Assembly: GCF_000346465.2 (NCBI RefSeq)
Contig: NC_034009.1
Coordinates: 30,500,131-30,564,130, forward strand
Length of the DNA stretch: 64,000 nucleotides
Origin: Prunus persica
Lineage: Eukaryota > Streptophyta > Magnoliopsida > Rosales > Rosaceae
Reading direction: 5' to 3'
In this document: piece after piece, positions 1 through 53,253 of the stretch
How positions within the stretch are numbered: position 1 is the stretch's first letter
Layout: the number at the start of each line of letters is the position of its first letter
The notes under the pieces: model-generated
Seen by the model: only the letters and a program-made list of their open reading frames with translations
What the model was told of the DNA's origin: nothing
The model's database searches: none
Program-made: the position numbers and the translations under genes

Positions 1-2100
1 TCTTTACTTGCTGATCAGAGGGCTCAAGTTCAAATCTCCGCATCATCATAGTTGTGTGTGTGTGAAAAATTCTCATATTCTATAGTTTAGATAATCACTT
101 GTACTAAGAAAAAAATTAATTGTGTTTGACTATACACCTGAAAAATATTCCAATAACAATTAATTTATTTTTGTTATAATTAATAGTTTAGTCACAAAAA
201 TAATATAATAAACTATGAAACCGCTCGTATATCCCTTTCTTCATGTTTGCTCAACTTGAGATTAATAAGTCATGTTTTTATTTGCTAAACTTTTAATTGA
301 AATGCGTTTGGGTTTATTTATTTAATTATTTTAAAGATATAACGAGTTTGGCTTGATTAGGTTGGTCCAACTCAATCTCGTCGAGTCATCCTTAATGGAC
401 AACATATCTCTTACCATTATATATGTTTTCAATGGCAAAACTGGAATGTCAATATTTGATAAGAAATACAGTTTTAAGCATAATTAAGAGAAACATGAGA
501 TTATGAAATTGCTCTCAAGTTGCTGTGCATGTTGTGAAGGCATCTTTCTTACAATATTGATCATGTGACCGACACTTATTTTCAGTATAATAAATTGGGA
601 ATTTGAAATTAAATAAAACCTTCCAAAACGAAAACAATTACATCATGGGATTCTTGTGCAAAATGTCACACATTAGGTCAAATGATATTTGATTACCCGG
701 GCAAGCAGTAAAACATTGAATGAACATTATTATCTATAGTTTAATTGCCAGGCTTTGGCCATTTCTGTTTGGCAATTCGTTGAGCTCACCTATTTTGAGT
801 AGAGTAGGTATTGTGGAGAAAAAAATAAGACACCATATCATATTATGTCAGTAAGTTCGTCCTTTTGTATTTAAGTTCGAATCGTCATTTTTCAAAATTA
901 AATTAATTTAAAATAATTTAGATCATAAATTATATTTAAAATAATAACTTGTTATGTACCATGGATGTGTGTTCCTACAAAATCGATAAAATTTCATAAT
1001 ACGTGTGTGTAGGAGGGATCAAACGTGAACTCTTGAATTTATAATAGTATTTTTTTTTTTTGAGATATTTAGTTATATACCAATTCTTAGCACTAAAACT
1101 ATAAATAAACCATACACCATTTTATTTCTATAAACATACCAAAAAAAATCTAAAAAGAGATAGCTGGCCCTATTAAATTAAATTTTGATTATTAAATTAC
1201 TTTAATGCATTATTGAGTGTTTTAGATTTTTTTATGAGTTTTTGGGTTGAGTTTGTTTTAAGAAATTAATGGCAGTTTTGTATTTAAAAGAAGTTAAGAG
1301 CCTTTTTGTTATATTGTAAATGAGTTTTGGGTGTGTTTCTAAAGTCCATTTCATATAGGTTTTTTTTATAATTTAGGCTCATATATTAAGCATAATAGTG
1401 AATCTTTTTTTTTTTTTTCAGGTCGACTTGAATTTATAATAATATACTAAAGTTAAAATGAACATAAAATAATAATAATAAATATGAATATAATAGTGGC
1501 GTAAAAAGTAAAAAAGATGAATATACTACGATTGTTGCTAGAAAAATCAGCACTAATTTATTCTTAGGGTAGGCGACCGTTGGGTTCGATCAATCAAAAC
1601 GTGGGGATCTGACTGCAGCACTTGCGCAAAGGCCTAAAAGGCGCGTTGCCTCACGCCGTTACAAAGGCCGTGGGCTCTAAAGTCTAAAGTGAGAATTAAT
1701 AAATGAAAGTCTAATCGTTTTCTCGAGAAAATCGAATGGGGATAAGGAGGAAAAAAGACATCGTCCCCATCAGAGAGTATCCCACCATACACGTGTCAAA
1801 GAATTTCCTCCATCACACGTGTCAGTAGTTAAGATCCTCACCTTAATGACTAATCCGAGTGGCCTCAATGCCACCAATCGCGACCCAGTTTAGTAAAAGT
1901 CACTAGATAACGCTCAAGCTCATGGCCCATCAATAGTTACTTACTCACACCCCACACACTCACAAACATTACCTATGTTACCCTTGATAAACTTCAAATT
2001 CCCATCGATTCCAAGCATCACGACCGTATTTGAGTAGAGACAAGATTGTAATTTCGAAATATGGGTGCTCCCATCGCATTAAATCATGGGCGCCCCAAGT
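1..2100. other. Intergenic DNA, no gene seen
   Basis: AT-rich DNA with long A and T runs and no convincing reading frame. The first 100 bases (GGGCTCAAGTTCAAATCTCC) and 870-890 carry phrases resembling the tRNA-derived B box found in plant SINEs, but the matches are too weak to call. The part from about 1560 on is richer in GC and probably belongs to the promoter of the DUF789 gene downstream. Confidence 0.6.
1789..1823 (+). promoter_or_regulatory. Pair of ABRE/G-box motifs
   Basis: The 9-mer ACACGTGTC occurs twice, at 1789-1797 and 1815-1823, with a 26-bp period. The CACGTG core is the binding site of bZIP (ABF) and bHLH (PIF, MYC) factors. The pair lies about 800 bp before the DUF789 start codon and may give it abscisic-acid, stress or light response. 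The role is inferred from the motif alone. Confidence 0.5.
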
Positions 2101-2624
2101 AGATGGCGATTTCTTTTTATTTTTTTTATTTTATAGAAAATAAAAATAAAAATTTGTTTTGTTCTTCTCCTACCACTACGCAGTGCCCATCCATCCATTT
2201 ATTCAGAGCCTTGCTTCGCCATTTCCTTCCTTTCGCTTCCTCCATCGCTTCCCTTCCGCAACTATTCAATCTCTCTCTTTCTGTCCAACTGGTTTTACCA
2301 AATTGCCCCCGGAAACCTGCCCTACCCTACCCTTACCTTCTTCCACCAGATCCATTTCACTCTCAGCCTCCATTTTAGGGTTTTACTATTTCGGTCTAGC
2401 CACAGACTCCAATCCTTTTCTCCGATCCGATTCGCCCCATTGTTTTCGATTAACTCTCATTTCTCACAAACCCTTGAGACGCCGATCCTCTAATTGAATA
2501 AATTCCCAGAATCGCTTTCTTCGTTTCCATTCCCGTTGACTTTGTTTCAGGGTTTAAGAGGCTACGTACGTACAAGGACCAGATTTAGGGTTCTCGTGCA
2601 AGTTTCTGATTCGGCGTTATTGCG

Positions 2625-5489
2625 ATGTTGGGTACGGGGTTGCAGGTCACGCGCGCCCGCGGAGAAGACCGATTCTACGACCCGGCCAGAGCCCGTAGAG
2701 CCCACCAGAACCAGAAAGCCGAGCAACTTCGGCGAGCTCAGAGCGACGTCACGCCAAGCCAATCGCCTTCGCTCAAGGGTAACCCTAACCGGGAACCCGA
2801 GAACAGGGTCGGGTCAGATGACCTTCCCAAGCCCGTCGCCGTGCCTGCTTTTGAGCCCGTTGTCAATCCCTTGAGTAATCTCGAGCGGTTCTTGCAGTCG
2901 ATCTCGCCATCCGTGCCCGCTCAGTACCTCTCTAAGGTCTTCGTCTAAACTAAACAGAAATGTCACATTTCTTGGTTATTTTTCTCTTAATTTTGTGATT
3001 GAATATTTTACTTTTGGTAGCAGACGACGATGAGGGGATTGAGTACTTGCGACGTGGAATTTCAGCCATACTTTGTTCTTGGAGATCTATGGGAGTCTTT
3101 CAAGGAGTGGAGTGCTTATGGTGCAGGAGTGCCTTTGATTTTGAATGACAGTGACTCTGTGGTTCAGTACTATGTCCCTTATTTGTCCGGTATTCAGATA
3201 TACGGCCACTCTATGAAATTGCCCACTAAGACAAGGTATGCATTTTACTCAATACTCGTCACTTAATTTGATCAATTGTAATGTTCCATATGTTGCCTTT
3301 TGAACTAGTTCCAGAGGTGAAAGTAAATTAATTCCATTTATTTTAGTTAATTTTATTGTCCCCTTTCATGCTGAGGTTTGTATTTTTCTCATTATAATGA
3401 TTACTCAATATAGTATTTTGTCATTAATATCTCTTCTTATCCTTATCCATTATTGATTGTTTTTGCTAAGTATTTTATGGCTTGAGAATGGATGGTAAAC
3501 GGATTTAATGGTTTGCTTATTCTTCCTACTCGTTGCATCTGAATCTGTACTTTTGACTGAATTGATTGATAGTGTTTTACTTAGTCCCCGCCCCCCTTCC
3601 TTCCCGTATATTGCATATTATGTACTCTATCCAAAATTTGATGGTCCTTGTGTGTGATAGGCGGCCAGATGAGGACAGTGACAGTGAGTTCAGGGATTCT
3701 AGTAGTGATGGAAGCTCTGATTATGAAACTGATAGATTAAAATATTTGAGGGAGCAGCGGAATCACCAAAATCTATCGAGTGAAATTCCTCTTAGGATAG
3801 AAAGATTATCTCTGAGAGAGCCGCATTTTCCACCTCATGAAGACTGCTCTAGTGACGAGGGTGAATCCATCAATTCTCAAGGTTGCTTACTATTTGAGTA
3901 TTTTGAGCAGGACCTTCCTTATTGCCGCGAGCCTTTAGCTGACAAGGTTATAATTGCATTTATTCACTAATTCGTTACCATGTTTAGAACAATTATATTA
4001 AAATTTTGGTACTTGTAATTTTCCTTCCCTGTTTTAGGAATTTTTTTCTCAACTTTCCAATTTTACAGATACTAGATCTTGCCTTCCATTTTCCTGAGCT
4101 GAAGACACTAAGAAGTTGTGATCTGCTGTCTTCCAGCTGGATTTCTGTTGCATGGTACTTTCAAACTCTGCATTTGTTTCCTGGGTCATACACCGTCATG
4201 TGACTAATTGGTTTTGGTATAATTGTTTCAGGTATCCAATTTACAGGATTCCAACGGGACCAACTCTAAAGGATCTTGATGCGTGCTTTCTGACGTACCA
4301 TTCACTTTTTACACCCATGGGAGGTACTAATCAATTTCACTGTTAGTTTTGAAAACTTGTGTGCATGGTTTTTCCGAGAATGGAAGTTTGTCCCCTGGCA
4401 TTTGCTATGCATAATTTATACACTTGAGATGCCAGGTTGTTTCATTTTGTTCATCAGTCAAATTTTTCCACATGTAATCATATCTGATGACGTGGTCTAA
4501 TTTTTTCACATATAATCATATCTCACAACGTGGCGACAGAAAGAATATTATCCTATCTACATTCTGGAGTTATTGGTTTTCCTTATAGATGGTATTATAT
4601 AATTTGAGCAATTTACACCCATGGGAGGTAATAATTAATATCATTGTTAGTTTGTCGTGTGCATGGTTTTTCTGATGATGAAAGTTAGCTCCCTGACATT
4701 TGCTCTTTATAGAACACGTTTGAGATCCAGGCTGTTTCATTTAGTATGTCCGTCTGATTGTATATTACTATGTGACGACAAATTGAGTATTACCTTAATT
4801 ACTCCTGGAGTCGATTGGCTTGCATATATATGGTATTTTCTAATTTAAGAAATTTACAACTTCGGGAATTTTATTAATGTAAATTAAAGAAAGCTTTTCC
4901 ATAATTCCATTATGCTGGATATATCTGTAGAACTCCAGAGTTATGTATTGCGCTTATCCCCAGCACCTGCATGCATGTCTCCGTGTCAAAATTTAATTTG
5001 GCAGACAGATATACTGCTGATGATGTCATTAGGTGTGAAGTATAACTAAAGTGCAACTGTCTCAGGACCACAAATAAATATAAAAGGGCTGGATAATTGT
5101 CTAAATGCCAAGTTGTTTTCTTTAGAATCATTCTAGGTGTTGTACAATCATCTCTGATAAGCTCGTCTCTTCTTTTGATTACTCTTGCTGCTCTTGTCAA
5201 ACCAAACTCATCTATTTCTCAGTTGCTTATATTATTTACGTAATGTTATGTTTCAGGTGTACAAGATGACCGGGCTCCTGTAGTGACATATCCGAGTGAA
5301 ATGGATGGTGTTCCTAAGATGTCATTACCTGTTTTTGGCCTTGCTTCATACAAATTCAGAGGGTCCTTGTGGACTCCTAATGGGGGATTTGAACGCCAGT
5401 TAGCTAACTCCCTGTCGCAGGCTGCTGACAACTTTCTAAGAGTGCTGCAGGTCAATCACCCTGATTTTGTGTTTTTCAGCCGTAGATGA
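2625..5489 (+). CDS. DUF789 family protein
   Basis: Six exons join in frame: 2625-2936, 3021-3235, 3661-3946, 4069-4154, 4232-4323 and 5257-5489, giving 407 residues. Exon 2 could instead start at 3024 and lose one Gln. The product has a variable basic N-terminus, then the conserved DUF789 core: a block around [19 protein letters not shown], an acidic serine-rich middle, the [19 protein letters not shown] block and the C-terminal [10 protein letters not shown] block. The biochemical function of DUF789 is unknown. The start at 2625 opens the long conserved exon 1, and an untranslated leader of about 400 bases probably precedes it. The 3' UTR probably runs to about 6000 and holds a GAT repeat at 5931-5951. 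The neighbour downstream is convergent. The match resembles Arabidopsis At2g01260/At1g15030. Confidence 0.88.
4311..4880 (+). repeat. Imperfect duplications in DUF789 intron 5
   Basis: The last bases of exon 5 with its splice donor (ACACCCATGGGAGGTA) and about 150 bp of following intron recur 304 bp later at 4615-4760. A third, more diverged block (4804-4876) resembles 4564-4638. The second copy therefore carries a decoy exon end and donor site inside the intron. Confidence 0.6.
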
Positions 5490-6302
5490 TATGAACTATG
5501 AAGATGTGACTAACTGTGTTGCTACCACCGTTCTAGAAGTGAAGCCTGTTTGCATGAGTTACTTGTGAAAAAATCCCTGTATTGTGTGAAATTCAGGGTG
5601 GCAAGTTGGTATGCAGGGATTCCCTCGTTTTGGTTATCTGTTATTTTACTACAGGAGAAAGAAAGAAAGGAAAAGGAAAAGGAAAAGGAAAAGAAAAGGG
5701 TGAAGGCAACTTAAAGAAAAGTGAAGCTTTGGCATGTGATGAAATGAAGGCTGTAATAACCTCAGCGAAAAGTGAATAGAGGAAATATAGTTAGATAAGC
5801 TATAGATGGTCTAGCTAATCAAAGTTGCTTTTTAATGGAAGCAAGCTCTGTCTTGCTCGTTTTCTGTATTTTGTTCTTAGTAAGGAAGGGTATATTATAA
5901 AAGAAAAACCAGGCTCTTTTTTTATGCCATGATGATGATGATGATGATGATGTTAGCATGTGTAATTTTATCTATGAGGGGATTTTGATATAGAGATTGT
6001 ATTTAAGGTTTAGCTTGAGCTTCCTTCCCCGTATGTGTTTTTGTTTGGAGTCACAACCGCCCGCTTATTAACTCTATCTATCAAACTGTGTTTTATAGCG
6101 TAAAGATTGTTGATTCTGCTCTGTGGGTTTAAGCGGCAAAGAGGCTCTTCAAACCAAATTATTATTATTTTTAAAATTTCAACGCAAGAAAGAGAAGAAC
6201 ACAGAGCGCAAACGGGAAACAATTTTCAGGAGATAGGAAAGGAAGATCGGAAGTCCAATACAAAGGCTCTGAGAAATCATATGTTTTACAGCAAATGAAA
6301 AC

Positions 6303-8017
6303 TCAAGATCCATCAACTTCAACTTCATTATTAAGCAGGTCATGGAACTTGGTGTCCAAAGCGTCGGAACACATCTGACTCATAATGCGGTAGAAAGACA
6401 ACAAATCAGAAAGCTGCTCTATCGACATCTTCCCAATTATGGCCCTTGCAACTCTCTCCCTTTCCTCGCTCATCTTCAGTCGTTGTATGTATGCCGAAGC
6501 ATTTCTTACTGTTGCCCCCATCTGCTTCAGCCTTTTCTCTTGCTGCAAACTCAGTGCTGTATTTGCCTGCATATACCACAACATTAGACCATTAAAATCG
6601 AACGATGACGGCTAATGTGATTATAATCATCGTTTATTACTCACCTCCAGAAACTCTGCTCCAACGTCCAGTTGATCAGATTCTTTGCCTGAAACAATTC
6701 CACGCCTAGAATACATGTTTTTGGCAATGGAGAAGCTCCTTACAATACTATTCCTCTTCATCTCTAGGTCCTGATCAAGCTGTGGAGCCTTCGGCACACA
6801 TGCCGAGTTTTGACTGAGCTTCTTTTCATAAGCTCTCACTGCTTTAACAAATTCCTGCATGAATGATAATATTAACCATGACAAATGACACGCAACAAAC
6901 CACAAACATGAAAAAACAAAACAATAGAACAAATTAATTAAGGTCTTACCCGATATGCAGCTGCGCATCCTGGATATTCAAAATTGTCTGAATCCTGTTG
7001 TCGCATTCTCTCCGGATGGAATTGAAGTCCCATAATAAACTTCCCCTCCTCAGGATTATAGGCATCCGGATCATAAAACCCTTCAACCAAACCATCAGGA
7101 GCGAAAGCCATCGGCGCGAATCGCTCTGCCAATCGCTTAACCCCCTGATGGTGATAACTATTCACCCACATCTCCATTTTCTCATCATCCAAAGAATCTT
7201 TGAACCACTGATGCAAAGGTGTATTCTCCACCACCTTCACCCCATGTCTATGCCCATCATAATTCTCATAGTTTATGTGAGCCACTCTTTGAGCGCAACT
7301 CTGATATGGGCATTCTTTCAAAAGTTCTCTCTCAACATCTTGATAAAGTGTGCCTCCGCATGCAACATTAAGGACTTGGGATCCTCTGCATATTCCCAAG
7401 TAGGGGATGTTTCTTTCTAGGCATAGCTTTGCAAGCCCCAGTTCAATGGAGTCTTTCTCTTTATCAATGGCGGTATCGCTTGCATGTAGCTTGCCAATTT
7501 CTTCTAGCTCGTCTGGAGAGAAACCAGAGAGCTGCGCATCGTAATGGGACGGATCAATGTCTTCACCTTCGCAGAGAAGAACTCCATGTATTGGTTCAAA
7601 GCTTTGGAGTAGCATGTGGACTCCACTGACTCTGGGGACAATAACAGGTACTGCTCCATAGCTTACAATTAGATCTAGATGATATTCTCCTGTCCCATAA
7701 GATGTTTTAATAATCAAAATTAAAATCAAGAGCAACTGAAAGATTTTATTTGATGTTTGAAATAATAAAAACCAAATTAAGTTTATGATAACCAAAGGTA
7801 TTGTTCCATTTGCATTGAAACTATAAGAACTGCTGCGAAATCTGAGTAACGGCATATTATATTCCAAGGAGATGGATATACGTAAAAAGTCGGTAGCCAA
7901 AGCCAAACAAAGAGATAGAGACTAACCCACGAAATCTACAAACTTGTTCTTGCGGAGGGTTCGTCGAGAGACGATAAGAACCCTAGGCAAAACCATTGAC
8001 ACATCAGAATTAGCCAT
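6303..8017 (-). CDS. Class I glutamine amidotransferase-like protein (GAT1_2.1 type)
   Basis: Four exons on the minus strand, 8017-7927, 7689-6950, 6854-6645 and 6566-6303, join in frame to 434 residues. Residues 10-277 form a class I glutamine amidotransferase / peptidase C26 domain with an intact Cys-His-Glu triad: Cys131 in the elbow YLGICRGSQ, and His255 and Glu257 in LQFHPER. A plant-specific, coiled-coil-like tail of about 155 residues follows. The family hydrolyses gamma-glutamyl amides, but the substrate cannot be read from the sequence. The closest remembered relative is Arabidopsis At1g15040, a nitrogen-responsive gene linked to shoot branching. The MANSDVS start was chosen because its exon splices in phase 1 to the conserved GEYHLDL; the longer intron read-through frame ending at 7906 was not used. 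A compound CA/TA/GA repeat lies in the leader. Confidence 0.9.
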
Positions 8018-8067
8018 TGATGAAGACAGTAAGTAACGTTGCACTGGACGAAGATCAATTATCTCTA

Positions 8068-8145
<78 letters not shown>
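8068..8145. repeat. Compound microsatellite (CA)n(TA)n(GA)n
   Basis: About 10 CA units, 7 TA units and 20 GA units follow directly on one another, 51-128 bp upstream of the amidotransferase start codon. On the sense strand of that gene the long part reads (TC)n, a common 5' leader element in plants. The tract is likely to vary in length between cultivars. Confidence 0.9.
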
Positions 8146-8147
<2 letters not shown>

Positions 8148-8149
8148 AG

Positions 8150-9396
8150 ATGAGTATAAATATAACGAGAGAGTGATGTGGATGGATAGGGATCTTCTAA
8201 ATGAGGTCTTAAGAAATGACGTGATAGTTGGTAATTATGTGAATAGAGAGCAATCTGCTAAGATTACATTTTGTTTCCTTGTTTCATGGGTTGGATTTTG
8301 TTTCTTGTTTTGCGTTTTGTAATAAGATCATAGACAAGATCGACTCTAGGCTGCCTCCTCTTCTTAATATAGTAATTACGATGATAATAACCAAATTGAA
8401 GATTTGCTCTTCGTCTTGGCTCCGCCTATGGCCTTTTTTGGCCAATGCTTATGCTTTATTTTCGTGCCATGTTTGTTAGCTTTGCGATATTTTAGGAATT
8501 TGGATAATTAATTAGCACCAAACCCAAAAGTCAAACTGAGAGTGAGTCAATCGTACATTCATTCATTCGTATGTGGATTGATATTTGAGCACTCATTTGT
8601 GGCAGAAACAAACAACAAAAAGCCCAAACCACCTCTAAATTGCCAAAGGCCCGAACACGGACAGCCCGGCCCCGACAAAAGTCCATATACTTGGTTACCT
8701 TTAAAAAGATCCGGTTCTGTGTTTAGGTTTAGGTATTAAACAATCACTAAGTAATCCTTAACCAAGTACCAAAACAAGAATCTCAAAAGCATCGTGTCCG
8801 TCTCATATATAAAATGTAAATCTGTAACAAAAATAGTAAAAAATTATCACACAATGTCATCATTGTTGGTGCTAAGTATGTGTAATATCACTAAACAAAC
8901 ATCTAGTTAATTCATGATCGTAGAATGATTAATTATTTACTCGGAGATATAGATAATGTTAATTTGTGTGAGTACATACAACGATCAATCTACATCAAAC
9001 ACCCATCCATCATTGAAGGGGTGACCTCCTACATCCGGTAGCACAACCGGCAACTGGCGCTCCGACAATCCAACCGCGCTCCTGCTGCTGACTATCTGTC
9101 CAAACCCATTTATGTTTGTAGATGTTATTAACGTTCACACCCCCACCACCGCACTTGAAGACAAACTCTTTTTGAAGTTTTTATTTTATTTTTTATTTTG
9201 CAAGAAAAAGCAACATGTGAAACTCCAATCCAAATGTAGGACCTAAACCAGGGCAGCGACAAATTCCCGATTTTCTTCACCCAAAGAATAAAAAGAAAAA
9301 GAAAAAACGAAAGTTGCCTATTTCTTTCTTTTTCATCAAAAGCAGAGATATTTTCAGGGAACCCAACCACATACACTCGCTCGCACAGAGAGAGTA
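8150..9396. other. Intergenic DNA between divergent genes
   Basis: This 1.25-kb stretch separates the amidotransferase gene (minus) from the DUF1218 gene (plus) and must hold both promoters. No open frame in it has coding character. No repeat was recognised. Confidence 0.6.
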
Positions 9397-11072
9397 ATGG
9401 CAGTCTCCATACCCATAGTGGCCATCGTCACCTCTCTGCACCTCATCGCCTTCGTTTTCGCCGTGGGTGCTGAACGACGCCGTAGCACGGTAACTTCATA
9501 TCTCTGTCTCCTCTCCCTCTGTGTTTTATTGAAGTTAAAAGCCCTAACCTTTTTTGTGTTTGCGTCTGTGAAGGCCAAGATAGTGCCTGATGAGTACGAC
9601 GAGCACACCTACTGCGTTTACGGGACGGACGCTTCTACGGCGTACGGATTAGCGGCTTTTGGGCTGCTTTTCGTCAGCCAGACGGTGCTAAACGTCGTCA
9701 CGAGGTGTCTCTGCTGCGGCAAAGGCTTAGTGACTGGCAGCTCCACCACTTGGACCGTCTTCTTCTTCGTCTTCTCCTGGTAAATTTACCATTTTCTCCC
9801 CCCTCTTGTTTTGTAATTTCTTGTTTATCTTATTAGTAATTTAGTACACACTGGTCCCACTGGAGTGTCTTAATCTCAGCTCGAGGGTTGGATCAACGGT
9901 CATAATCCTTCCATCTTTAGTAGAACTTAGAAGGAAGGAATCAGGTTCAATCTACTAATTGGGTTTCCAATTATGACCAAATTACTTATTCATTTGGTTA
10001 ATATGTCACTCATCAGTTGTTTACGAGCCACCACCTGCCCTGCTCTGCCCTGTCCGCCGCCTACATGTTTCTTGTGATGGCGAAAATCTGAGACTTTTGC
10101 ACTTGCTTTTAATAATTGCCACAGTGCCACTCTACGTTTAGATGATCTAATGGTTTATTGGAGTTGTTACACAGTTACAGTGTATTCATTTTTGTTTTTC
10201 ATTTGTCTGGAATTTGGTAAAGAAAAGTTAAAGTAGCTTAAGTCATGATTTAGACCCAATTCCCTTACTTTGGCCCCTACCTTTACTTATCGTTTCCCCT
10301 TTATCGATCCGAGAGTGCTTTAATTTCAACATCTTTGACATTACGCATTGTGGAACTTATCAATGGATGATACAGGAGCATATCCAAAACTTTTCCCAAA
10401 GTTTGGTTCTTAAACAATGTTATAGACGATATGGCAGTATCTTGTTAGAAATAAGCGTGGGGTTAAGTGGGTGTAGATATGAACACATGAAACACTATCG
10501 CTTCATTAAACTACGTTGGTTTAGAGTTGGGACTGTTTTGGTATCTCTAGCATTACTTACTTGGAATAGTGACAACCCAAATAAACAGTATGGATTCCGC
10601 TCGTAACCTCCATTGTGAATATTATTTTTCCCTTGTTACTCTTGCGCGCTTGAGCCTTGAGTGAATGCTGTTCCCTACTCTCTAGTATTATGTTTGTGTA
10701 AATGATCTCATTTGCTTCATTTTGCTAAATCAAAATCTGAAGACTCTGAACTATGAATTAATTAGGACAAGCTTTTTGGGAGCCGAGGCATGCTTATTGG
10801 CAGGGTCAGCAAAGAATGCGTACCACACCAAGTACCGGGGAATCTTTAACGCAGATGACTTGTCCTGTTCCACTCTGCGTAAGGGCGTGTTTGCCGCCGC
10901 GGCTGCTCTTACACTGTTGTCATTGGCAGGGTCAAGTTTTTACTACTGGGCACATTCCAAAGCTGATACTGGGGGATGGGAGAAGCACAGAAATGAAGGC
11001 CTCGACATGAGCACTTCTAATTATGCAAATCATGAGCAGCAACAGCAAACCGGTGGATTTGAGAAGGTATAG
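9397..11072 (+). CDS. DUF1218 family membrane protein
   Basis: Three exons, 9397-9489, 9574-9779 and 10766-11072, join in frame to 201 residues. The product has four hydrophobic segments: an N-terminal signal-like helix (residues 4-22), about 53-70, about 88-100 continuing into FLGAEACLLAGSA, and about 147-165. Conserved cysteines lie in the loops (YCVYG, CLCCGKG, DLSCSTLRKG). This layout and the WTSFLGAEACLLAGSAKNAY block mark the plant DUF1218 family, whose MWL members affect lignin in secondary walls; whether this copy does so is unknown. The tail is hydrophilic, Gln-rich and probably cytosolic. The long second intron (about 990 bp) holds no other gene. The 3' UTR probably ends near 11260. 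Confidence 0.87.
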
Positions 11073-42541: not shown

Positions 42542-44134
42542 AGGCCTTAGACTCATTTAATTGCTTCATTTTTTGCTCATCAATGAATTGAAATCTCGAG
42601 AAATGAACAATAAAGTTGTTTGTTTCTGTTATACATACTGGAAGAGCAGCAATAGACAACGGATGGATTAGTTTTTTTATAAGTTATTCTTATCCCAGTT
42701 TCACGTAGATTTCTTTTTTCCATAGTATTAATGTAATTTTTTTTCTTTTTTTCTTGTATTTTTGTAACTATCATGCTTTGAGAATAAGTTTGTATATTTG
42801 GAATAGTTTTATGGGGTTTTATTTTTATTTTTTCTCTTTGTTGTCAGCTGAGCAGCAGACACCAGACAGGAATCTAAATGATAACCTTGATACATTCGAA
42901 GCCATTCCTGATGCAGTTCCAGTTGTGTTCACTGAACCTCCCATTGAAGATCAACTGGCATGGCATACACTGTGGCCAGAGTCACACAAACTTTACGGTC
43001 ATGGAAATGAGCTGTTTGCTCTGTGCAGTGATCATGATGGGACACTTGTTGCTTCTTCATGTAAGGTATATGGTGTCACTGTACTGCTGTTACATATATG
43101 TGAACTTGGATATTCTTATAAAGTTCCTAAGAAAGAATCGCTTTAGGAAAGGGAGCACTTGACTGGTGGGTAGATTGGAGGAAATTATTTTAAAATATTA
43201 AAGAATTGGATTCTACATGAATTGATACATTATTCCTATACTATACGTGATATTTATTGCAGGCCCAATCAGCAGCAGTAGCGGAAATATGGCTATGGCA
43301 AGTTGGTTCATGGAAAGCAGTCGGTCGCTTGCAGTCTCATAGTTTGACAGTGACACAAATGGAATTCTCGCATGATGACAAATTCCTGTTGGCTGTATCA
43401 AGGGATCGGCAGTTCTCTGTATTTTCAATCGATAAAACAGGTACTCTTTAATCCAAGTCCTGGCAATATCTAGTTCATTGCCGTGAGTTGTTCAGGTGTT
43501 GAATATTTTAGGAGAGAGATTGATATGATATTATGAGTGTTATTTTCAATGATCACCCATCAAGAGCAGACATTGCTTTCTACGATTGAAGCCTGTTGTT
43601 AAACTTTTCATGATACATAGTTCTTTTGATGTCCGTTTAGGCACCGATGAAACTAGTTACCAGCTTGTATCAAAGCAGGAGGCACACAAAAGAATCATAT
43701 GGGCATGTTCTTGGAATCCATACGGCTATGAATTTGCAACCGGCTCGAGGGACAAGACAGTGAAGATCTGGACTCTGGGAAAAGACACTTCCGTTAAGCA
43801 GATCACGACTCTGCCGCAGTTCAATAGTAGTGTCACAGCCCTATCTTGGGTTGGTCTCGATCGCAAGAGCAATGACGGACTCCTTGCAGTTGGAATGGAA
43901 AACGGTCTCATTGAATTATGGAGTCTATCTGTTAAAAGAAGTGAAGATGGAGTAGCAGCAGATGCAGTTGCTGCAGCCCTTGTTGTACGGCTGGATCCAT
44001 TGATGTGCCATGTTTCTTCAGTAAATCGATTGGCATGGAGAAATCGCAGGAATGAAGATTCCAGTAGCAGCATACAGCTTGCTTCCTGTGGGGTGGACCA
44101 ATGCGTGAGAGTGTTTGAAGTTAACGTTAACTAA
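39498..44134 (+). CDS. ELP2: Elongator complex subunit 2 (WD40 protein)
   Basis: Ten exons (39498-39650, 39766-39853, 39958-40043, 40385-40538, 40892-41052, 41147-41824, 42171-42492, 42848-43065, 43263-43440, 43641-44134) join in frame to 843 residues, close to the usual ELP2 length. WD40 repeats run along the whole protein and form two propellers, for example [53 protein letters not shown] and [26 protein letters not shown]2 is the scaffold of the Elp1-2-3 core of Elongator, which modifies the tRNA wobble uridine and has been tied to histone acetylation, defence and auxin responses in plants. The exon 6 acceptor (ATCAAG) is weak but gives the conserved [10 protein letters not shown]. Intron 7 starts with a CT microsatellite. 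Confidence 0.92.
42497..42538. repeat. (CT)n microsatellite at the start of ELP2 intron 7
   Basis: About 21 CT units begin 4 bases after the donor GTGA of intron 7, on the sense strand of ELP2. Read through, it would add a Ser-Leu run and a stop to a retained-intron product. Confidence 0.9.
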
Positions 44135-44835
44135 GATTATTGTGTTTTTTATATGTAAAATTAAATTTTGTAAGCCAATATTAATGACCATTTCTAATTA
44201 GTAGATTCTTGCATTATACAAGTTGAATTGAAAACTAATGAATCTCTTCTAGTGGACCCGACGCTATTGGGTCGTCGTCGACACTCGGGCGCCATGCAAT
44301 TTTGGAAGTAATCTTGTTTGGCAAAACTTGCCTATTCCCGTTCATTGCTCCATTCTTTATTTCTCCATGTAATTAGATTAATTCTAGTGATTCTCGTGCG
44401 TTGTATCAAATCCAATTCCAAGACGAGGCAAAACGATTCTTCTTTTTATTGGAATGTGACATGAGATGAGAACTGATGGCGCCGATATCTTCTTCTGACT
44501 GGCAGCGCTTTCTCTCGATTGATGCCCATACGCCAAACTAGGGATCAATAAAATAAATGGTCCAAACTGCGACTAAAAAAAGTTGGGAAATAGTTCAAAA
44601 TACCACCTATTTTATAATTTTTTGTCAAAATACCATCCCTTCCCAAAATTTTTAAAACTACTACCTATAAATACATCTTTATTGTAAACTGATTGCACCC
44701 ATATCACATTTTCAGAAATTGGTTCTCTCTCAACGCTCTTGGCTCTGTCTCTCTCTTCAGCCCATCTGTCTCTGTCGCTGAGCTCTCTCCCTCGTGTAAC
44801 TCTCTCTCCGATGCAATCGTCTTTCTCCCTCAGCG

Positions 44836-45099
44836 ATGGCTGTTTATCCAAGCTTAACTCCACTGTTGACATCCACGAGGTACTGTTCATCTAACCCTCA
44901 CCCATCTGGCAATAACAGGCACACTCCGTCACCCTCATTCATCACTCCGAAACGACGGCGTATCACAACTCATTCTCATGGTGCCGTACTTAAACTCCAG
45001 ACCATCTCCTTCCTCCTTCCTCCTTCCTCCTACCTCCTCCCTCCTCCTCCTCCTCCTCCTTCTTCTTCCATCTCCGCCAGTGCTGGTTCCCCAGTTTGA
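44836..45099 (+). other. Captured N-terminal exon, transit-peptide-like (inside the Pack-MULE)
   Basis: An 87-codon frame, Ser/Thr/Pro-rich with few acids at its start and then RRRITTHSHGAVLKL, looks like the first exon of a nuclear gene for a chloroplast protein. It ends in a Pro run and a stop. It starts about 250 bp inside the left end, downstream of a CT-rich stretch (44720-44830), so element-driven transcription is possible. The donor gene is not recognised; it might belong to the same gene as the rRNA-methylase-like piece downstream. Confidence 0.4.
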
Positions 45100-45329
45100 T
45101 AGATTGAAGAAACAGTGTAAAGAGATAGATTGAACAAGTGTACAAGGAAATCGAATTTCTTCCATGGTAGCGTGCCGCCGATAACTTTGCAAGTAAAGTA
45201 ATCAACTTTATTTATGGTTTTTTTCTCCATGGTTGCAGTAATGACGTCGTAATTGAATCGATTCTGTTATGATTTTGGTTAACTTATCTGAGGCTTTTGA
45301 TTTACAAAACCAATGTCCTAAATGTTGCA

Positions 45330-46443
45330 GCTGCTGATGTGAAAACATATTTGTTGACTGCTATTAGTGGAGGCTTAAACCAGCAAAGAAGAGGGGTGAG
45401 TTTCTTGATTGAGCTGTAGCTGCATATTAATCCAGTAGACGCCCATCTTAGTTTTCTTCCATTTGAGGCCTAACTTATCGTTCTAATATCTTCATTTAAG
45501 GCTTAAAGTACATTGTGGTTATGCATTCAGATTCCAAATGGCTTCTTTATTAGTCTAAATTTGATTTGTTATTTCGTTTAGGCATCTGGTTATAAGTAGA
45601 TCCTGTATAGGACTTGTTGATAGGACTTTGTAACTTTTTCATTCCATGAGTGATAAGACTGGTTTGTTATCATGCATGTTTTTTATGCTGATTCAGCATC
45701 TTGTGCTTCTTTCTTGATTCTGTTACAGATAACTGATGCTCTTGTTGCAGCTTATATCTTGAATGCTACTCTTCTTGTTCTCAAGCTGGGCCAGAAATTA
45801 TTTTGGAAGGATTCCAGGTCATTTTCACCATATCACAGATACAAAACTACTGTAAAGGTCCATGTAAGCAAAACTGTCTGTGGATTAATATTGTTATTCG
45901 GGTATTTGGTGCAGCAACTTTGATGAAATCTTTGATGTAGACTGGTTTATATAATCTCTATCAAAAGATGTTGAAATCATTAAACAGCTTCCAACAAAGG
46001 GAGGAAAAGCAATGAGTCCATATAGCATGCGTGTCCCAAGGAAGGGCAATGCAAAATGCTACCAGAATCGTTTAGTGCCTGTTCTTAATAAAAATATTGT
46101 AAGTGTATTTCAGGAGAACCTACCACATTTTTGTAAAGAATTTGTTAATTATCATATGCTGGTGTATATAACCAAGGAAGAAAAATTTCCAGTGCTTGAA
46201 TGAGTGCCTTTTTTGGGATATATAGAATTTACAGTTGTTTGTTATGCTTTCTAATGTGCAGGGTGTTCAGCTCACAAAGTTTGATTACAGGCTTTCAAAT
46301 AAATTGGATTCAAATTTACAAAAACTTAGGTGTAGAGCAAATTATCATGCCTTGAAGTTTAATGACCTTATTAATGAAATGGGGAAAACGTTGGTTGACA
46401 GAATGAGAATGAAAAGCAAGCATTTCATTGCCCTGCATTTGAG
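45330..46443 (+). pseudogene. O-fucosyltransferase family fragment (captured)
   Basis: Exon-like pieces follow the order of a plant GDP-fucose protein O-fucosyltransferase: YLLTAISGGLNQQRRG (about 45340-45397), ITDALVAAYILNATLLVLKL and FWKDS (45729-45816), NFDEIFDVDWFI (about 45916-45951), SLSKDVEIIKQLPTKGGKAMSPYSMR up to QNRLVPVLNK (45955-46098) and VQLTKFDYRLSNKLDSNLQKLRCRANYHALKF to KHFIALHLR (46262-46443). An in-frame TAA at 45952-45954 breaks DVDWFI/SLSK, and the C-terminal half of the enzyme is missing. Introns are still present, so genomic DNA was captured, not a cDNA. The piece is non-functional as an enzyme. Confidence 0.85.
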
Positions 46444-46919
46444 GTAAATTGCAAATAAATAAAAAATTACCTGCTTGAGTATTTTTTTTTTCCCCAAAAG
46501 ATACATCTGTTAGGTACTCACTATAACCCAAGTTTCTTGATGTTCCTATCTTATGGTTCTGTGTTTAAAATCTTAATGCAATTGGCATTTGATTTATGAG
46601 AAACGTGCGCAGAGCTAAAATAAGAAAGAAACTCAAGGCTATTAAATTTCTTCTAATGGCCAAGATTAATGCAAATCATTTTTGTACGTCTGTTTTATGT
46701 TCGATTTGTATAATCATAAACTTATCGGTATTCATATTGTTTGCTTCAATAACTTTTGGCTCTTTATTGAAGTCGGAATGTGTTCTGTATATTAACCAGG
46801 AAAGTTATTGAATATTCGACTAATGTTTATTATACTTAATATCATGTTCATATTGTATGGAAATATTATCGAACGTATTACTGCATTATTTTTCTTAGTA
46901 GAAAACTTGCTTCCTGAAA

Positions 46920-47103
46920 GGTTTGATTTCGTGGGTGATTAGGCTTGTCGCTTTCAATCTTGGCTATCTTCCGGGGGGTGACAAAACAATTATCAGAGTC
47001 AGAAACAACACTGAAGAAGGCGTTGGAAGTTGCAAAAAGTATCGTGGTGCCATGAGGTCTTATCAGTTTAGTGGTTTACATGGGGCATCCTGGTGGATGG
47101 TAA
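46920..47103 (+). pseudogene. rRNA-methylase-like (YtqB family) fragment (captured)
   Basis: The frame reads [16 protein letters not shown], the hallmark block of the YtqB-type SAM-dependent methyltransferases, then continues as [18 protein letters not shown] and ends [10 protein letters not shown]. The first part matches a known family from memory; the rest does not obviously belong to it and may be a fusion. The catalytic SAM-binding N-terminal part is not visible nearby. Confidence 0.5.
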
Positions 47104-49440
47104 CAGTTCTGTTCTCAAATTTTATTTTTATTCACTCTGTATGCTAGTTTGTGCTCCCTGGTTTTTATTATGTTCATTATGCAGGTTGAGCAAAACCTAT
47201 AACAATGGCTTGAGTAATTTTCCTTTAAGATACTAGAATAAATAAATAGATAAAGTTGGATAGTTAGGCCAATATAAGCTCAATTAAGTTCCTCCCAAAC
47301 TATGCCTGAAATATTTTGCTTCTTATTATTAACAAAGGAATAGTTCTTTTGTAGCTAAAAATAATGAGTATGTTATAGCATGGGAAAATTGTTTTGCCCT
47401 ATTTAATTTGTGTGTTTAGTGGGAGCATGACTTCTAAGGAACTTCTTGTGCAATGAAAGCAACAGTTGGAAGCTTGCCTTTTCAATCAACCCCCTTTTAT
47501 TTTATTTTATAAAGTCTGGTAGATGAAGCCATCATTTATGCTTCCCCTTCAGATTGGTTTGGAATTGGATTAAGATATACATGGTTAGTTTTAGGTACTA
47601 GAGGAGTGGGATAGGCTGTTTGGATTTTACGTTCTAGTCTTGCTTTGAGAGGAGAGAGGGGGAAGGGGAGAAGGAGAGTGACATTGGAAGTCTTCTATGA
47701 CTAGTAAATTGGAAGTCTTGGACTCTTATTAAGTTTGTGCATTTTCAGAATGAAGAATAATCTGTTTTTAGGCTCAAAACAAATAACGTGGATTGAATTC
47801 TAGGACACCGATGCTACTGTAGATCATAATAGAAGCTTTCTGCTCATGTTCCAGTCAGGGAAACAGAAGTGCAGTATCCAAGATTGTGCTTGATTCGTGA
47901 AATTGTTATTAATATTGATTTATGACATTGGTGATTGAGTTGGAGATTTCCAAATTGGACAATTCTTATTGCTTTGCTGATATGGATCCAATATGCTTTG
48001 TTTTGGCAAAAAGGGTCCTACTTAATGTACATTATTTGTTCTTTTAGACTTGATACGTATAAGTTTAGTTTTGTCATATGCTCCTGGCTTGCTTGTTCTA
48101 ACTGTGGGCACACATAAGGCGGAAAACTTTACACGTAAGGCTTCACTGATGTCTTGAATGATGTCATTCAATAGTGACCTGTTTTATATAATTTGTATCT
48201 CTGCTTTATAACTACATTTGATATTTGGGGTTATATTGCATGCAGGCAAGCAACCCTGACAAGGTACGAAGTGAATATAAATCATTCTCAGGGTAAAGTG
48301 ATGCCTAGTGTAAGAGTTTCATATCCAGGTTTTCTACTTAAACCTGACGAACCAAATTTGGTATGAACTACATCTTATGATTGCATCTTTGAGGCCAAAG
48401 CAGAAAAAATGCTAAACTACGTACAGTTTAAAAAATAATAATAATAAAAAGTCGAGGCTTTATGAATTAGTTGACTATTCTTTTTATTTATTTATTTAAT
48501 TTTATACTTTTATACATTTTGTGAAGTCTTTTTCTCTTCTTTTTTTTTTTTCAAGTTGCCCTAACTTGGCACAGATGCATGTATGCACGTGTGTACTCAG
48601 AGCACAAACTCCTTTATAACTCAAAAGAACGGTCGCAAATGTTAGTTTTTAACTTGGAAAAATAAAATAAAATTGAAAGTTACTTTTGGGAAATGTTGAA
48701 CTTTTATAACGAATATGGCTTCAGTGCAGAAGGCTTGATAGTAAATAGAAAATCTATATGCTGGGGGTTTTCTGGCTAGCTAAAAATGTGTGAGAAATGA
48801 TGAATCCATCTGATTGCAGCCTATTTAATGTTTAATACCTTCATTAAAAAAAAGGTTATTGACAGTGCTTTGACTATCTTGCATATTATAATGGCAAAAC
48901 CAGCAAGTGGCCCTAGTAAGAGAGATCAGCATGCAGGGATGGATGAGGACTAATTTTGTGTGTATGAAAATTGACTATCTTTGCTTGTATTGCTCTATGT
49001 TAGGGATCTTTTGTTCCATTTTAGTAACAATTTTGTTTAGGAGAAAAAGAAACATATTGCAGTTCATGCTTTGTAAATGCCACTCTTCTGTTACGATGGA
49101 CACGTGGTATGCCCTTGTTGGGTAGGTTTGGATTGAAACCATGGTCGAGTGCTTGAGCCATGTTTAGTGAGAAGCTTGAATGGATTTTCTTTTCTGTTGT
49201 ATTTGGCCCTTGTCTTTTCAAGCATGCCAAAAATCATCCTAGTTTTGTAATATGTGGTTTGTGCCCAATTAATTTACTGTGGATCTTGCATTTTTGTACC
49301 CAATATTTGATAGCTGCCTTCTTTTGAACGAAGATTCATTGAGGGAGAGAATTACTTTCCTTTTGAATATGAATCGATGTGCAACTCCAACTATCATTTC
49401 AAAGGTCAACATCAATTCATGCTAATATAAGGATGGATAA
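47104..49440. other. Pack-MULE interior, mostly unidentified
   Basis: AT-rich DNA with one exon-like piece at 48246-48360, which reads RYEVNINHSQGKVMPSVRVS and FLLKPDEPNL before a possible donor (GTATGAAC). I do not recognise its family. The remainder shows no coding sequence and is probably captured intron or intergenic DNA. Confidence 0.4.
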
Positions 49441-49539
49441 CAATTGTCGTGTCCATGAGATTTGAATTCAAGATTACTTTCAACGAAGTGGAGACTCTGT
49501 TATTAGACCAAATGGCCATTGACATACGATATAATAGCA

Positions 49540-50290
49540 ATATTAGGCCAATACATGTACACTATAGAGGCAATATTAAAGCAATATAACCACAATACGA
49601 TAGCAATAGTATTACAATATCACCTATAAAAATATAATTTTTGTCCACTTATTGCTGATTTTTCACATGTTCAGAAATTTTGTTCTCTCAAGCTCACTCG
49701 GCTCTCTCTCTCTCTGGCACATCTCTCTCTCTTTGGTATCTGTCTATCGCAGCTCTCTGTCTCTCTCTTGGCTCTCTCTCTCTCTCTCTCTCTCTAGTGC
49801 AACTCTCTGTCTCTCTCTTTGCTCCCTTTCTGTAGCGCAGCTCTCTCTCTGTGTCTCTCTCTAGCTTCGTTTTGTCTCTTTCTCCCCTTATTCGCTCTCT
49901 GTCTCTTTATTCATACCTTCCTTTTTTTGTAAATTATTTTTTAGTTGTTATTATTTTTTAAAATAATTTCTTACAATGTCTTACGATGCAATTATGATGC
50001 ACCTGACTGCTTGTTTTTGAAAGGCACGTTGTTTCTTTCTCCTCCTCATCTTCTTTTTGAATGAAGTATGGCCTAAACTGTAAACCCATTGATGAGCCGT
50101 AGTCAATATACATACACTAGAGAGGCAATATTAGGGCAATATAATGGCAATACGACAGCAATAGCATCACAATATACATGCAATACGATGGCAATATGCA
50201 TACAATATGTATACAATACACAGACAATATTAGTACAATACACATGCAATAGGACAGCAATATTAAGTCAATCTACATACAATACACACA
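49540..50290. repeat. CAATA-type minisatellite blocks and internal terminus copy
   Basis: Two blocks (49540-49625 and 50100-50290) consist of degenerate units of about 11-12 bp around GGCAATA/GACAGCAATA. Between them, 49640-49690 resembles the inner end of the Pack-MULE terminal repeat (TTTTTGTCCACTTATTGC and then TTCAGAAATTTTGTTCTCTC), followed by about 200 bp of CT-rich sequence like that behind the left terminus. This looks like a nested or fused second element. Confidence 0.55.
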
Positions 50291-50799
50291 CATCCATTAC
50301 AGACTACAATTTAGAAATGGAAAATAAATCGCCACCGAACCCTAACAATACTATCCCGAGAAGCAAAAATTATTTCTTTCATAAAACTTGACAATTCAAT
50401 TGTTATTACATAGTCAACCAATCTTTGCTCTATTACATACATACTTCCTACCTATAATTATAAATAATGGAGAGCTCACAAATTCTACTAATTTGATCTT
50501 AACTTCATCAATTTGTTCTTCGTTGTATGAGTTAGCTCTCCCTTCTTGCACATTTTCCAAGCTGTTCTATTCTCCTCCCGTGTAGCAATATCAGCAACAA
50601 CAGGTTATCTACAGATCTAAAATCATAACTGCAGATGATTCTCAATTAGCAAAGAGGAAAACCATTTTCTTTTATAACTTCGGTTCTGAAATATATAACA
50701 AAATACAAAGACCTTTGCTTCTGAAAAGGAGCCAAAGTTTGTCAACCAATTCATAGTAAAAACGAAGAAACTAGTGAACCTAACCAGAGAAATGCTAAC

Positions 50800-51122
50800 C
50801 TGCAAAACCAACTCCAAAACTTTAACCACATCATTAATACTTGAGATTTTCTTCTCATGGATTATGATTAGAGGATTTTCCAATTCCTATCAGCACATAC
50901 ACAAGTTTGAAGATAATCAGCATCAAGCAAAAAGGGACTTGAGGTGCTGCTAACTTTAACAAGCAGCCATCTAACAGTTTCAAGACATAGTTATCGCTGG
51001 GTCAAACTAAAACTTACACATTTCTGATTGTTCTGGTTGGTGATGAAATAAGGGGATATGTAGCCCCTGTCTAGCTTCATTCCCTCAACAACCTCCAACT
51101 CATTGTCCAATGTTTTCCCATC
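50800..51122 (-). pseudogene. Mitochondrial chaperonin CPN60 fragment (captured, two exons)
   Basis: Minus-strand exon 51122-51018 encodes [20 protein letters not shown] and on through [15 protein letters not shown]; the adjoining exon 50886-50800 encodes ELENPLIIIHEKKISSINDV to VLELVLQ. Together they match two consecutive exons of the HSP60/CPN60 apical-domain region, with the intron and intact splice sites. The rest of the roughly 575-residue protein is absent. Confidence 0.88.
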
Positions 51123-51369
51123 CTGCAGAAATTAACATAGTGTGAAGCTTACATGTTTTGGGTATCATTTGGGAATAAAAAACTAAAATAAAATTATTTG
51201 CCCTCCAATATATTTCTGTAAAAATTTCATAAGACCCATACATACCTCACTTTAAAACAACAATAAAAAGAAGCTGATATCATCCAGATTTCAGCCCTTG
51301 CAATACGGTAACTACACTAATATGCCTATGACAAATCTGCTGACTAGAAACAGACACAGGCAAATAAAT

Positions 51370-51560
51370 TCACATACCCATCAGCACAGCCACTGTCCAG
51401 GTCGTGATGAGATACAAGCCAATAGACGACCACCACCAAATTGCTCTTCAATGTGCTGGTCAAGGGTGCAAATCTGTTGACGCTTCTCCAACTTTCTTAC
51501 TACATGGTTGTTCTTCTTCACCTCCTCAGCAACGGCAACGGCAGCATCACCTTCCTATCA
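51370..51560 (-). pseudogene. 40S ribosomal protein S8 fragment (captured)
   Basis: The minus strand encodes [19 protein letters not shown], then [20 protein letters not shown], the C-terminal third of eukaryotic RPS8. After SSRPGQ the frame is lost (about one base missing compared with QCGRADGY) and a donor-like GGTATGTGAA follows. The N-terminal two thirds and the last exon were not found. Confidence 0.85.
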
Positions 51561-52019
51561 AACAAATAACACAAAATGCCATCAAAGACAGTAAAGTTCA
51601 TTGCGCATGTGTGTGTCCAAAAGTAAAGTTCATTACCAGAAAAGCTCCTTTATTTCATTTTACAGGCATAGTATTCTTGTTGATCAGTAAAATCAGAGGA
51701 CTTGAGCTGCTCCAGTGGGACTACCACTGACTCAATTCGCCCAAACAAGCAAGCACTATGAGATCCTCTTGGCAAAACTAGACAACCAATAACCATAACA
51801 CCCTAACCCTATCACGAGTAGTGACTCTCCAGATTGCATGTGCATTACAGGCCACTGCCCCCCTCCATTTCAGCATGCAGGGAAACTCAACCAATTCTTC
51901 CAGCATGTGTACTTTGTCATAGATAGCATCATCCTAGCAGACAGAATCTCATGTGACAATCAAGTTCCATTTTCCAATTTTTTTTTCCAATTTTTCATTA
52001 TATAGCTAGAGACAAGGGG

Positions 52020-52200
52020 GCAGATTAGTATGCAGCTCCCACAATGGATGACTGGTCTTCGGTGTTGACTGCTGCTTCAGAATCTGGCTTTCCTGGTTTG
52101 ACCTCTTCATTGAGTGTAAGTTTTATCTTGGGTGACAACCTCTTGACTTCCTCTATTGTATAGATAAAAATCTCCTTACCATGCTGTAGAACTCACTGCA
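52020..52200 (-). pseudogene. Unidentified C-terminal exon (captured)
   Basis: A minus-strand frame reads HGKEIFIYTIEEVKRLSPKI, then LTLNEEVKPGKPDSEAAVNT, and ends SSIVGAAY-stop. It is clearly protein-like (acidic, no low complexity) and looks like the last exon of a gene, but I do not recognise the family. It lies between the PATROL1 and RPS8 pieces, all on the same strand. Confidence 0.5.
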
Positions 52201-52684
52201 ACAAAAGTACATAGATTGTACGGGATGAATATTCAAAGGCATGAAGCTTAGATTCATTAACCTAATTACTTCTGGCGGAAGTTCATAAATGGGATGGATA
52301 CCTGAAATTTAAAATAAACAAAAAAGCTTCCTACCTGTAATGAGTCGATCAAACACAAGGCTTGATTAACTACAATTCCAAGGCAGATAACCATTCACAA
52401 AAGTTTGAAATTACCCATTATGAAATTAAACATTCGTGAAACATTTTGCATTGTCAGTTTTATCAGATTGAACTACACTTAGTGAAGAAAGAATTTTTGT
52501 TTTAAAGTAAGAAAAACCAAAATCCAAAATTGGCCAAACCAGTAACAAAATTAAGCTCCACATCCATCCCATCATCACAATTATCACAATGATAAAAATC
52601 AAGCATTACCCACCAAACAAAATCAAACCCATCAAACCAGATCAACCAAGATCACAAATAAGAAAGCACAGAAATTGAGCTCAC

Positions 52685-53080
52685 CTGAGCAGCAGAAATC
52701 CTAAGCAGAACTCTCCTGACTCTAGAGTCCATAGCGTCAGAAATCCCCATTTGGATCCTCATTAGCTCACCCACCGTCATAACCCGCTTGGGCTTTCCAG
52801 GTCCCGACCCGGACCCACCCGACCCAAGACTCTTCTTGGAACCCGAACCCGGCGATTTGAGACCCAATGCCTTCTTCATCCTGCCGGCAGCTACAGAAGT
52901 GAGCGATCTTTGCAACTCCGGCAAGCTGTTGAGCGAGTTGGCGTGCTGGGTCGATGAGTCCAAGTGAGAAGAAGCGAAAGACGATGTGAAAGCCAGGGCC
53001 TTTCCGGTGGATGTGTGGTAGGCAGCGACGAAGATCTTAGTGGAGCAGACAATATTATCGATTATGACTCTGCAAAGCAA
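52685..53080 (-). pseudogene. PATROL1 / unc-13 homolog fragment (captured)
   Basis: The minus strand encodes AAGRMKKALGLKSPGSGSKK, a Gly/Ser run, KPKRVMTVGELMRIQMGISD and AMDSRVRRVLLRISAAQ, then a splice donor (CAG/GTGAGC). This is the N-terminal region of the plant DUF810/MUN-domain protein PATROL1, which moves proton pumps to the plasma membrane. Only this exon part is present, joined directly to the inner edge of the right terminus, so the element end could supply a promoter reading inward. Confidence 0.85.
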
Positions 53081-53253
53081 AAGAAGCTGTGGTCGGTGGA
53101 GAGAACAAAATTTCTGAAAATGTGATATGAGTGCAATCAGTGGACAATAAAGATGTATTTATATGTGACAGTTTTAAAATTTTTGGAGAGGGATGGTATT
53201 TTGACAAAAAATTATAAAATGGGTGGTATTTTGAGCTATTTCCCAAAAAAGTT

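Follow-up and report, generated by a model that had tools for sequence, protein, structure and literature searches.

A probable multi-donor Pack-MULE in peach and its amplified family with rearranged ends

A 64,000-nt stretch of the peach (Prunus persica) genome, C1:30500131-30564130 (contig NC_034009.1; hereafter the window, whose coordinates are used for positions without a prefix), contains an element of 8,660 bp (~8.7 kb) at 44585-53244 that is very probably a non-autonomous Pack-MULE, a Mutator-like element (MULE) that has picked up fragments from no fewer than six host genes and transposes as a whole. A single mobile unit is indicated by the termini and target duplications, DNA matches to donor genes, nesting of captured pieces, four full-length copies, and relatives with and without individual modules.

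The two ends, of 145 and 146 bp, align over 146 columns as the long terminal inverted repeats (TIRs) expected of a MULE, and the 9-bp target duplication typical of this class, AAAAAAGTT, is perfect on both flanks. Termini of about 145 bp and an exact 9-bp duplication had been noted in a first-pass annotation of the window, and both are borne out. The 9-mer occurs five times on the plus strand of the window, so that a single flanking match alone could be due to chance. All 12 family elements with both flanks, including the one at 44585-53244, have perfect and mutually different 9-bp duplications. This count left out C5_3.78, which has only five bases of left flank (four of the five agree), and the spurious terminus pairs C3_20.6 1501-10541, C4_18.6 486-10227, window 96-10160 and C1_15.65 3825-7299. 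The termini recur elsewhere in the genome searched for donors and relatives (227.5 Mb, 192 contigs), as the annotation had proposed to check: the left 196 bases match at least 40 places (40 of 150 candidates scored) and the right end at least 40 (of 251 candidates), both lower bounds. Helitrons lack TIRs and target duplications and use a different mechanism; a Helitron class was ruled out for the peach element, which has both features.

Three further loci carry the same modules in the same end-to-end order (form A), each of the four with its own perfect duplication. The sister copy C3_20.6 is 99.8% identical over 8,148 columns, its leftmost 474 columns, beside a 100-N gap, being 96.4% identical; C4_18.6 is 96.1% identical over 8,147 columns (94.0% in the leftmost 569, beside a gap) and C1_17.5 is 95.7% identical over 8,686 columns. 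BLAST matches were counted from 60 nt for full-length copies, from 50 nt for the presence of modules in relatives and from 40 nt for the transposase-bearing relative and module M; identities of ends and modules across copies refer to matches covering over 60% of the module. The identity of ~90% between the left and right ends carries no age signal because the left and right ends are each closer to the corresponding ends of the other three full-length copies (95.9-99.3% left, 97.3-100% right). The perfect duplication and the 99.8% sister agree with the annotation's view of a fairly recent insertion, and the sister suggests recent movement. Thus the insertion looks young, though parts of the mosaic appear old.

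All six donors are matched by DNA to host loci elsewhere in the same genome, and all of the captured pieces lie inside the 8.7-kb element (Table 1). The annotation had described a Pack-MULE built from five or more host genes and had named five of them from the letters, an O-fucosyltransferase (O-FucT), a YtqB-type methylase, a PATROL1-like gene, RPS8 and CPN60; each finds its host locus, and a sixth, ARF-like donor joins them. Its remark that pieces lie on both strands with introns also holds: O-FucT and methylase are on the plus strand, the other four on the minus strand, and introns are kept. The first O-FucT piece is 88% identical to its donor over 45279-46489, with shorter, gapped blocks from 45142, and gives a Pfam O-FucT match on 46226-46447 (E 4.5e-18). 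The methylase piece matches Pfam rRNA_methylase (E 5.8e-7), and 51018-51122 matches mitochondrial HSP60 chains of known structures (E 5e-12). For RPS8, the Ribosomal_S8e score is 22.1 in the element, below the cut-off of 30.2, vs 32.4, above it, in the donor. The captured ARF-like piece has no Pfam name; AUX_IAA (E 3.6e-9) is found in a neighbouring, uncaptured frame of its donor, which is presumably an ARF instead of an Aux/IAA gene. The frames of the C1:37.850 Mb donor received no name from Pfam or NCBIfam; we take this gene to be PATROL1-like. Coding sequence of the O-FucT, methylase, PATROL1-like and ARF-like donors extends beyond the captured part. No family terminus occurs in the donor stretches fetched (flanks of ~0.14 to 3.4 kb per side), so that within these flanks all six pieces are fragments of host genes whose parents reside elsewhere without the element's termini.

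Module M has no named donor gene. The similarity between its two other loci, C1:20.730 Mb and C3:16.149 Mb, extends over 1.6 kb, which places them in a larger repeat; they were dropped as candidate donors. A 72-bp direct repeat (83%; 49549-49620 and 50104-50175) adjoins the internal terminus-like sequence.

Table 1. Features of the element at 44585-53244, in window coordinates
Feature	Position	Strand	Donor, match or remark
Left target-site duplication AAAAAAGTT	44576..44584	.	
Left terminal inverted repeat (L end)	44585..44729	+	90.4% to right end
CT-rich subterminal sequence	44730..44892	+	common to left-type relatives L057, L026, L060, L061
O-fucosyltransferase piece 1 (exons and introns)	45142..46489	+	C8:17857135-17858333
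YtqB-type rRNA methylase piece, nested in O-FucT	46494..48115	+	C8:6458361-6460013, 93.7%
O-FucT piece 2, two blocks	48116..48354	+	C8:17.857 Mb; ~760 bp of donor missing between blocks
Module M	48350..49041	+	also at C1:20.730 Mb and C3:16.149 Mb
Internal terminus-like sequence without outer part	49604..49690	+	to right end 75% over 85 nt, 80% over 70 nt
Sequence common to transposase-bearing relative and other family elements	49906..50363	.	83-88% to L068, L057, L022
CPN60/HSP60 pieces	50602..51200	-	C1:4.013 Mb, 88 and 93%; ~0.8 kb of donor missing between pieces
RPS8 last-exon region	51197..51596	-	C4:14.748 Mb, 89%
PATROL1-like piece 2	51663..51741	-	C1:37.850 Mb, 85%
ARF-like 3' piece, nested in PATROL1-like	51741..52326	-	C1:47497842-47498427, 97%
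PATROL1-like piece 1 (exon 1 and intron)	52327..53037	-	C1:37.850 Mb, 87%
Right terminal inverted repeat (R end)	53099..53244	-	
Right target-site duplication AAAAAAGTT	53245..53253	.	

The class assignment is further supported by a 15.4-kb relative at C6:15151302-15166691 (L068/L069), which bears the same ends and encodes a MULE transposase (PF10551, E 2.6e-18) with a SWIM domain (E 8e-8) at L068:1824-3357. We consider it a candidate decayed autonomous element. It was found by pairing termini; the family-wide transposase search scored 150 of 710 candidates. Pfam analysis of 10 of the 107 stop-to-stop frames of the element at 44585-53244 found no transposase among those 10. On the opposite strand the relative has a Rad51-type fragment; it also gives a sub-threshold match to DUF1985. 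Another captured-looking open frame is common to two family elements (L057:3412-3738 and L068:7641-8036); the latter copy has only Pfam matches below the cut-off.

Nesting and divergence are concordant for both nested pieces, and by these comparisons the assembly is stepwise. The ARF piece is absent exactly at 51741|52327 in four loci (L016, L054, L055 and L056) from three places, L016 and L054 being the two ends of one element. In gap-free alignments of the form-A copies, the ARF piece differs from its donor by 2.6-2.7%, vs 8.1-8.4% for the surrounding PATROL1-like sequence, and the methylase piece by 2.7-3.2%, vs 9.7-11.1% for the surrounding O-FucT (four copies). Both nested pieces are thus ~3x closer to their donors than the pieces they interrupt; the exon content is unequal between modules, so these divergence values are ranks, not dates. 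At the methylase site ~360 bp of O-FucT is missing relative to the donor; the ARF piece entered without loss.

Of the eight junctions examined, six join different sources and two are deletions within a single donor. Within 6 nt of them, the longest shared runs are 1, 1, 3, 5, 4, 4, 1 and 2 nt, a mean of 2.6 nt vs 1.7 nt for random joins (p 0.008). The form-C junction described below has a filler of ~14 nt, parts of which look, by eye, as if copied from nearby sequence. Short junction matches and fillers suit break repair with template switching or joining of the polymerase-theta type. Pieces may have entered when a break inside the element was repaired by copying DNA of unlinked genes, with switches at short matches; the joined element would then have been amplified by transposition, driven by a MULE transposase supplied in trans.

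Judged from the loci compared, the element is a member of an amplified family that includes rearranged forms. Form B (C2_25.8, C6_26.8 and C1_14.8) extends from the left end as far as 51311, where it turns and reads backwards from 48639 to another left end; the junction 51311|4-nt filler|48639 is identical in these three loci, which have three different duplications. C3_18.0 has left-type sequence at both ends and a middle of N. Form C (C5_16.8) has the right arm, including the ARF piece, at both ends; in form D (C1_15.65) each end is formed by a PATROL1-like arm, and neither the ARF piece nor an O-FucT match is present. In the left arm of C5_16.8 (L014) a 345-bp stretch corresponding to window 52219-52563 is inverted within the arm. 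Self-comparison of 13 elements (C3_18.0 was left out) yielded inverted arms of 146 bp in the four form-A copies. In form B they span 4,083 columns in C1_14.8, 512 + 3,514 in C2_25.8 and 382 + 435, cut by N, in C6_26.8; in forms C and D, 686 + 1,875 and 1,004 + 193. C5_3.78 has arms of 1,614, C1_45.5 of 845 + 757, and two other elements of 427 and 215.

Forms B and C look derived because they break inside modules that run uninterrupted in form A: at 51311 in the RPS8 piece and at 47874 in the methylase piece. RPS8 and methylase are also continuous in the donors, and module M, cut at 48639, is continuous at its two other loci. Elements that had broken may have gained a new end as an inverted duplicate of the arm at the other end, taken from the same or a sister element, which would give a left arm at both ends (form B) or a right arm at both ends (forms C and D); the long arms of such re-ended forms might then recombine. 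Within form B the two arms are 96.4% (C1_14.8) and 97.3% (C2_25.8) alike, vs 96.1-97.5% between these arms and form A. The arms are thus no more alike than they are to form A, which argues against a simple recent self-copy and suggests that the copy may be old or may have come from a sister.

The arms of two form-B loci have also recombined. In the outer 3.2 kb (44585-47784), C1_14.8 has a through arm that differs at 7 positions from the snap-back arm of C2_25.8 and at 102 from the through arm of C2_25.8, and over 47785-48639 the two through arms differ once. These counts indicate that the outer arms were swapped around the middle between the two loci, as would be expected of crossing-over or conversion between inverted arms. 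The pattern is imperfect, as extra conversion tracts are needed for 45785-46984 and 47785-48484. The end-exchange route is plausible but unproven. We put forward tentatively, at somewhat less than an even chance, that snap-back end rescue, in which a lost end is regained during break repair as an inverted copy of the element's own or a sister's opposite arm, acts together with arm recombination and nested gap filling to yield self-renewing, gene-shuffling MULE families across Prunus. Snap-back end rescue would turn asymmetric left-right mosaics into left-left and right-right elements that have kilobase arms and still transpose. Recombination inside the CPN60-RPS8 module was considered and rejected: C4_18.6 has low identity there because of a single ~150-column stretch that resembles an indel or misalignment.

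Instead of by serial capture, the element could have arisen by fusion of two smaller Pack-MULEs, a left one with O-FucT and methylase and a right one with CPN60, RPS8 and the PATROL1-like piece, through shared sequence. The truncated internal terminus-like sequence at 49604-49690 would fit such an origin, as would C5_3.78 and C1_45.5, in which CPN60-RPS8 is combined with left-type ends and no O-FucT match, and C1_15.65, with PATROL1-like arms at both ends and likewise no O-FucT match. Moreover, the ARF and PATROL1 modules of the form-A copy C4_18.6 are 98.6-99.8% identical to form C vs 96.5-97.6% to the window. However, no junction marks a clean element-element fusion, and the internal terminus lacks its outer part. 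We regard fusion as rather doubtful; it would be compatible with the Pack-MULE explanation as one of its steps. It is hardly credible that several insertions nested in one another, or an error of assembly, account for the structure: although 100-N gaps fall at similar positions in two form-A copies, the same end-to-end order recurs at four loci, each with its own perfect duplication. Several observations nevertheless weigh against a serially assembled, mobile Pack-MULE. The excess of junction matches is modest (at least 4 nt in three of eight, only 1 nt in three of eight), and placing junctions at the ends of BLAST matches may bias them towards overlap. Genome matching gave no donor gene for module M and several short stretches, and a true donor could be a gene other than the one that matches best. 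In the C6 relative the transposase domains are spread over three reading frames (by frameshift or introns) and the flanks agree at 6 of 9 positions (by eye), so that it does not establish an active source. Finally, the case for mobility is built on sequence comparison.

It is very unlikely that selection keeps at least one chimeric protein of the element, that is, that the element has made a new gene. In favour of selection, the PATROL1-like piece has a low dN/dS (0.28-0.40 to the donor in six copies or arms), which looked like constraint before exon rates were set against intron rates, and in seven of the eight copies or arms read at least 112 of its 118 codons are free of breaks; gene predictors also call chimeric proteins in almond and apricot. 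However, when copies or arms are compared in 28 pairs, divergence of the PATROL1-like exon exceeds that of the intron in 23, equals it in one and falls below it in 4; the 4 are comparisons within the set of C4_18.6 and C5_16.8, plus a single short-arm pair. The differences are mostly transitions (27 of 30 between the window and C1_15.65), and the low dN/dS fits mutation bias. Against the donor, the exon diverges less than the intron in five of eight comparisons, which is what constraint on the donor gene would produce. Other pieces are broken: O-FucT exon 2 has a stop in 4/4 form-A copies and in none of the five form-B arms read, O-FucT exon 3 has one in four of five form-B arms (the fifth matches only beyond the stop position), and the methylase exon is split between frames in 4/4 form-A copies, although C2_25.8 and C1_14.8 each have one arm in which it reads through 48 of 51 residues without a break. 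The captured pieces therefore behave as decaying pseudogenes, and no coding function is supported.

The element shares with the Pack-MULEs of rice, maize, Arabidopsis and tomato the Mutator-type long TIRs, the 9-bp duplication, intron-bearing host gene fragments and multiple copies, and differs from them in having six identified donors in 8.7 kb. That it is a known kind of element, with more donors than usual and unusually clear intermediates, is well supported. A paper on MULEs with multiple or extended TIRs notes that acquired sequence can be incorporated into extended TIRs (PMC3310237), whereas the peach family has asymmetric, left-left and right-right forms of the same modules, with arms of up to ~4 kb. 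The FoSTeST model for animal Pack-TIRs invokes short breakpoint matches and, for multicopy cases, template switching followed by transposition (PMC8277862); the median captured size given there is 224 bp, and the peach element shows serial and nested capture. Gene-fragment Helitrons of maize can hold up to nine donor fragments per mobile unit (PMC6431247). Gene-DNA acquisition by MULEs is still described as not understood (PMC3310237), and another paper suggests an undiscovered acquisition mechanism (PMC13317346). A Prunus review names a 349-bp FaSt MULE, and the portions of the open literature on Pack-MULEs, Prunus or peach MULEs and extended TIRs that were accessible contained no report of this peach family. 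Because the family retains elements that have a given capture beside others that lack it, together with exact junctions and forms with rearranged ends at loci whose duplications are intact, the sequence of captures, the breakpoints and the exchange of ends can be read off and put in a relative time order.

Related chimeras appear among proteins of other Prunus species, all of them gene predictions. A PATROL1-like query found 55 proteins, including ones from the cherries Prunus speciosa and P. campanulata and from P. armeniaca and P. dulcis. In 7 of the 14 compared (P0001-P0006 and P0032) the captured exon is preceded by VVIDNIVCST(E/K)IF or a variant, as in the element; the PATROL1-like donor differs from this motif before IF. 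These matches suggest that the outer PATROL1 junction is common to cherries, apricot, almond and the peach genome. In apricot the PATROL1-like piece is joined to CRM1-like and CPN60 pieces (P0002 and P0034), to RPS8 (P0005) or to an ORC1-named piece, an O-FucT tail and module M (P0054; Cdc6_C score 17.0, below the cut-off of 25.1). P0054 contains the peptide QATLTRYEVNINHSQGK across the internal O-FucT deletion, so that this deletion junction is common with apricot. A second protein search found 15 proteins, 11 from almond and 4 from apricot. An O-FucT domain is combined with an rRNA_methylase domain in 7 of the 15, whereas P0066 and P0067 resemble an ordinary O-FucT gene more than a chimera. 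In almond P0062, O-FucT, methylase, O-FucT and CPN60 follow one another in one sense, the order across the form-B turn. The junctions common to almond, apricot and cherry predictions indicate that parts of the mosaic are old. Cherry P0042 and P0043 have PATROL1-like pieces joined without ARF; these are spliced predictions and no proof of its absence.

Several annotated Prunus proteins thus look like transposon chimeras. P. armeniaca P0054 and P0055, named Origin recognition complex subunit 1, contain PATROL1-like and O-FucT pieces of the Pack-MULE family, and seven P. dulcis proteins (P0057, P0058, P0059, P0061, P0064, P0065 and P0068) with O-FucT and methylase pieces in the element's order bear names such as O-fucosyltransferase and root hair specific 17. 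In Malus domestica the predicted protein P0045 has a PATROL1-like start joined to a 14-3-3 domain. In the peach window, an open frame that by eye resembles a WD-repeat protein ends at 44131, ~450 bp upstream of the insertion.

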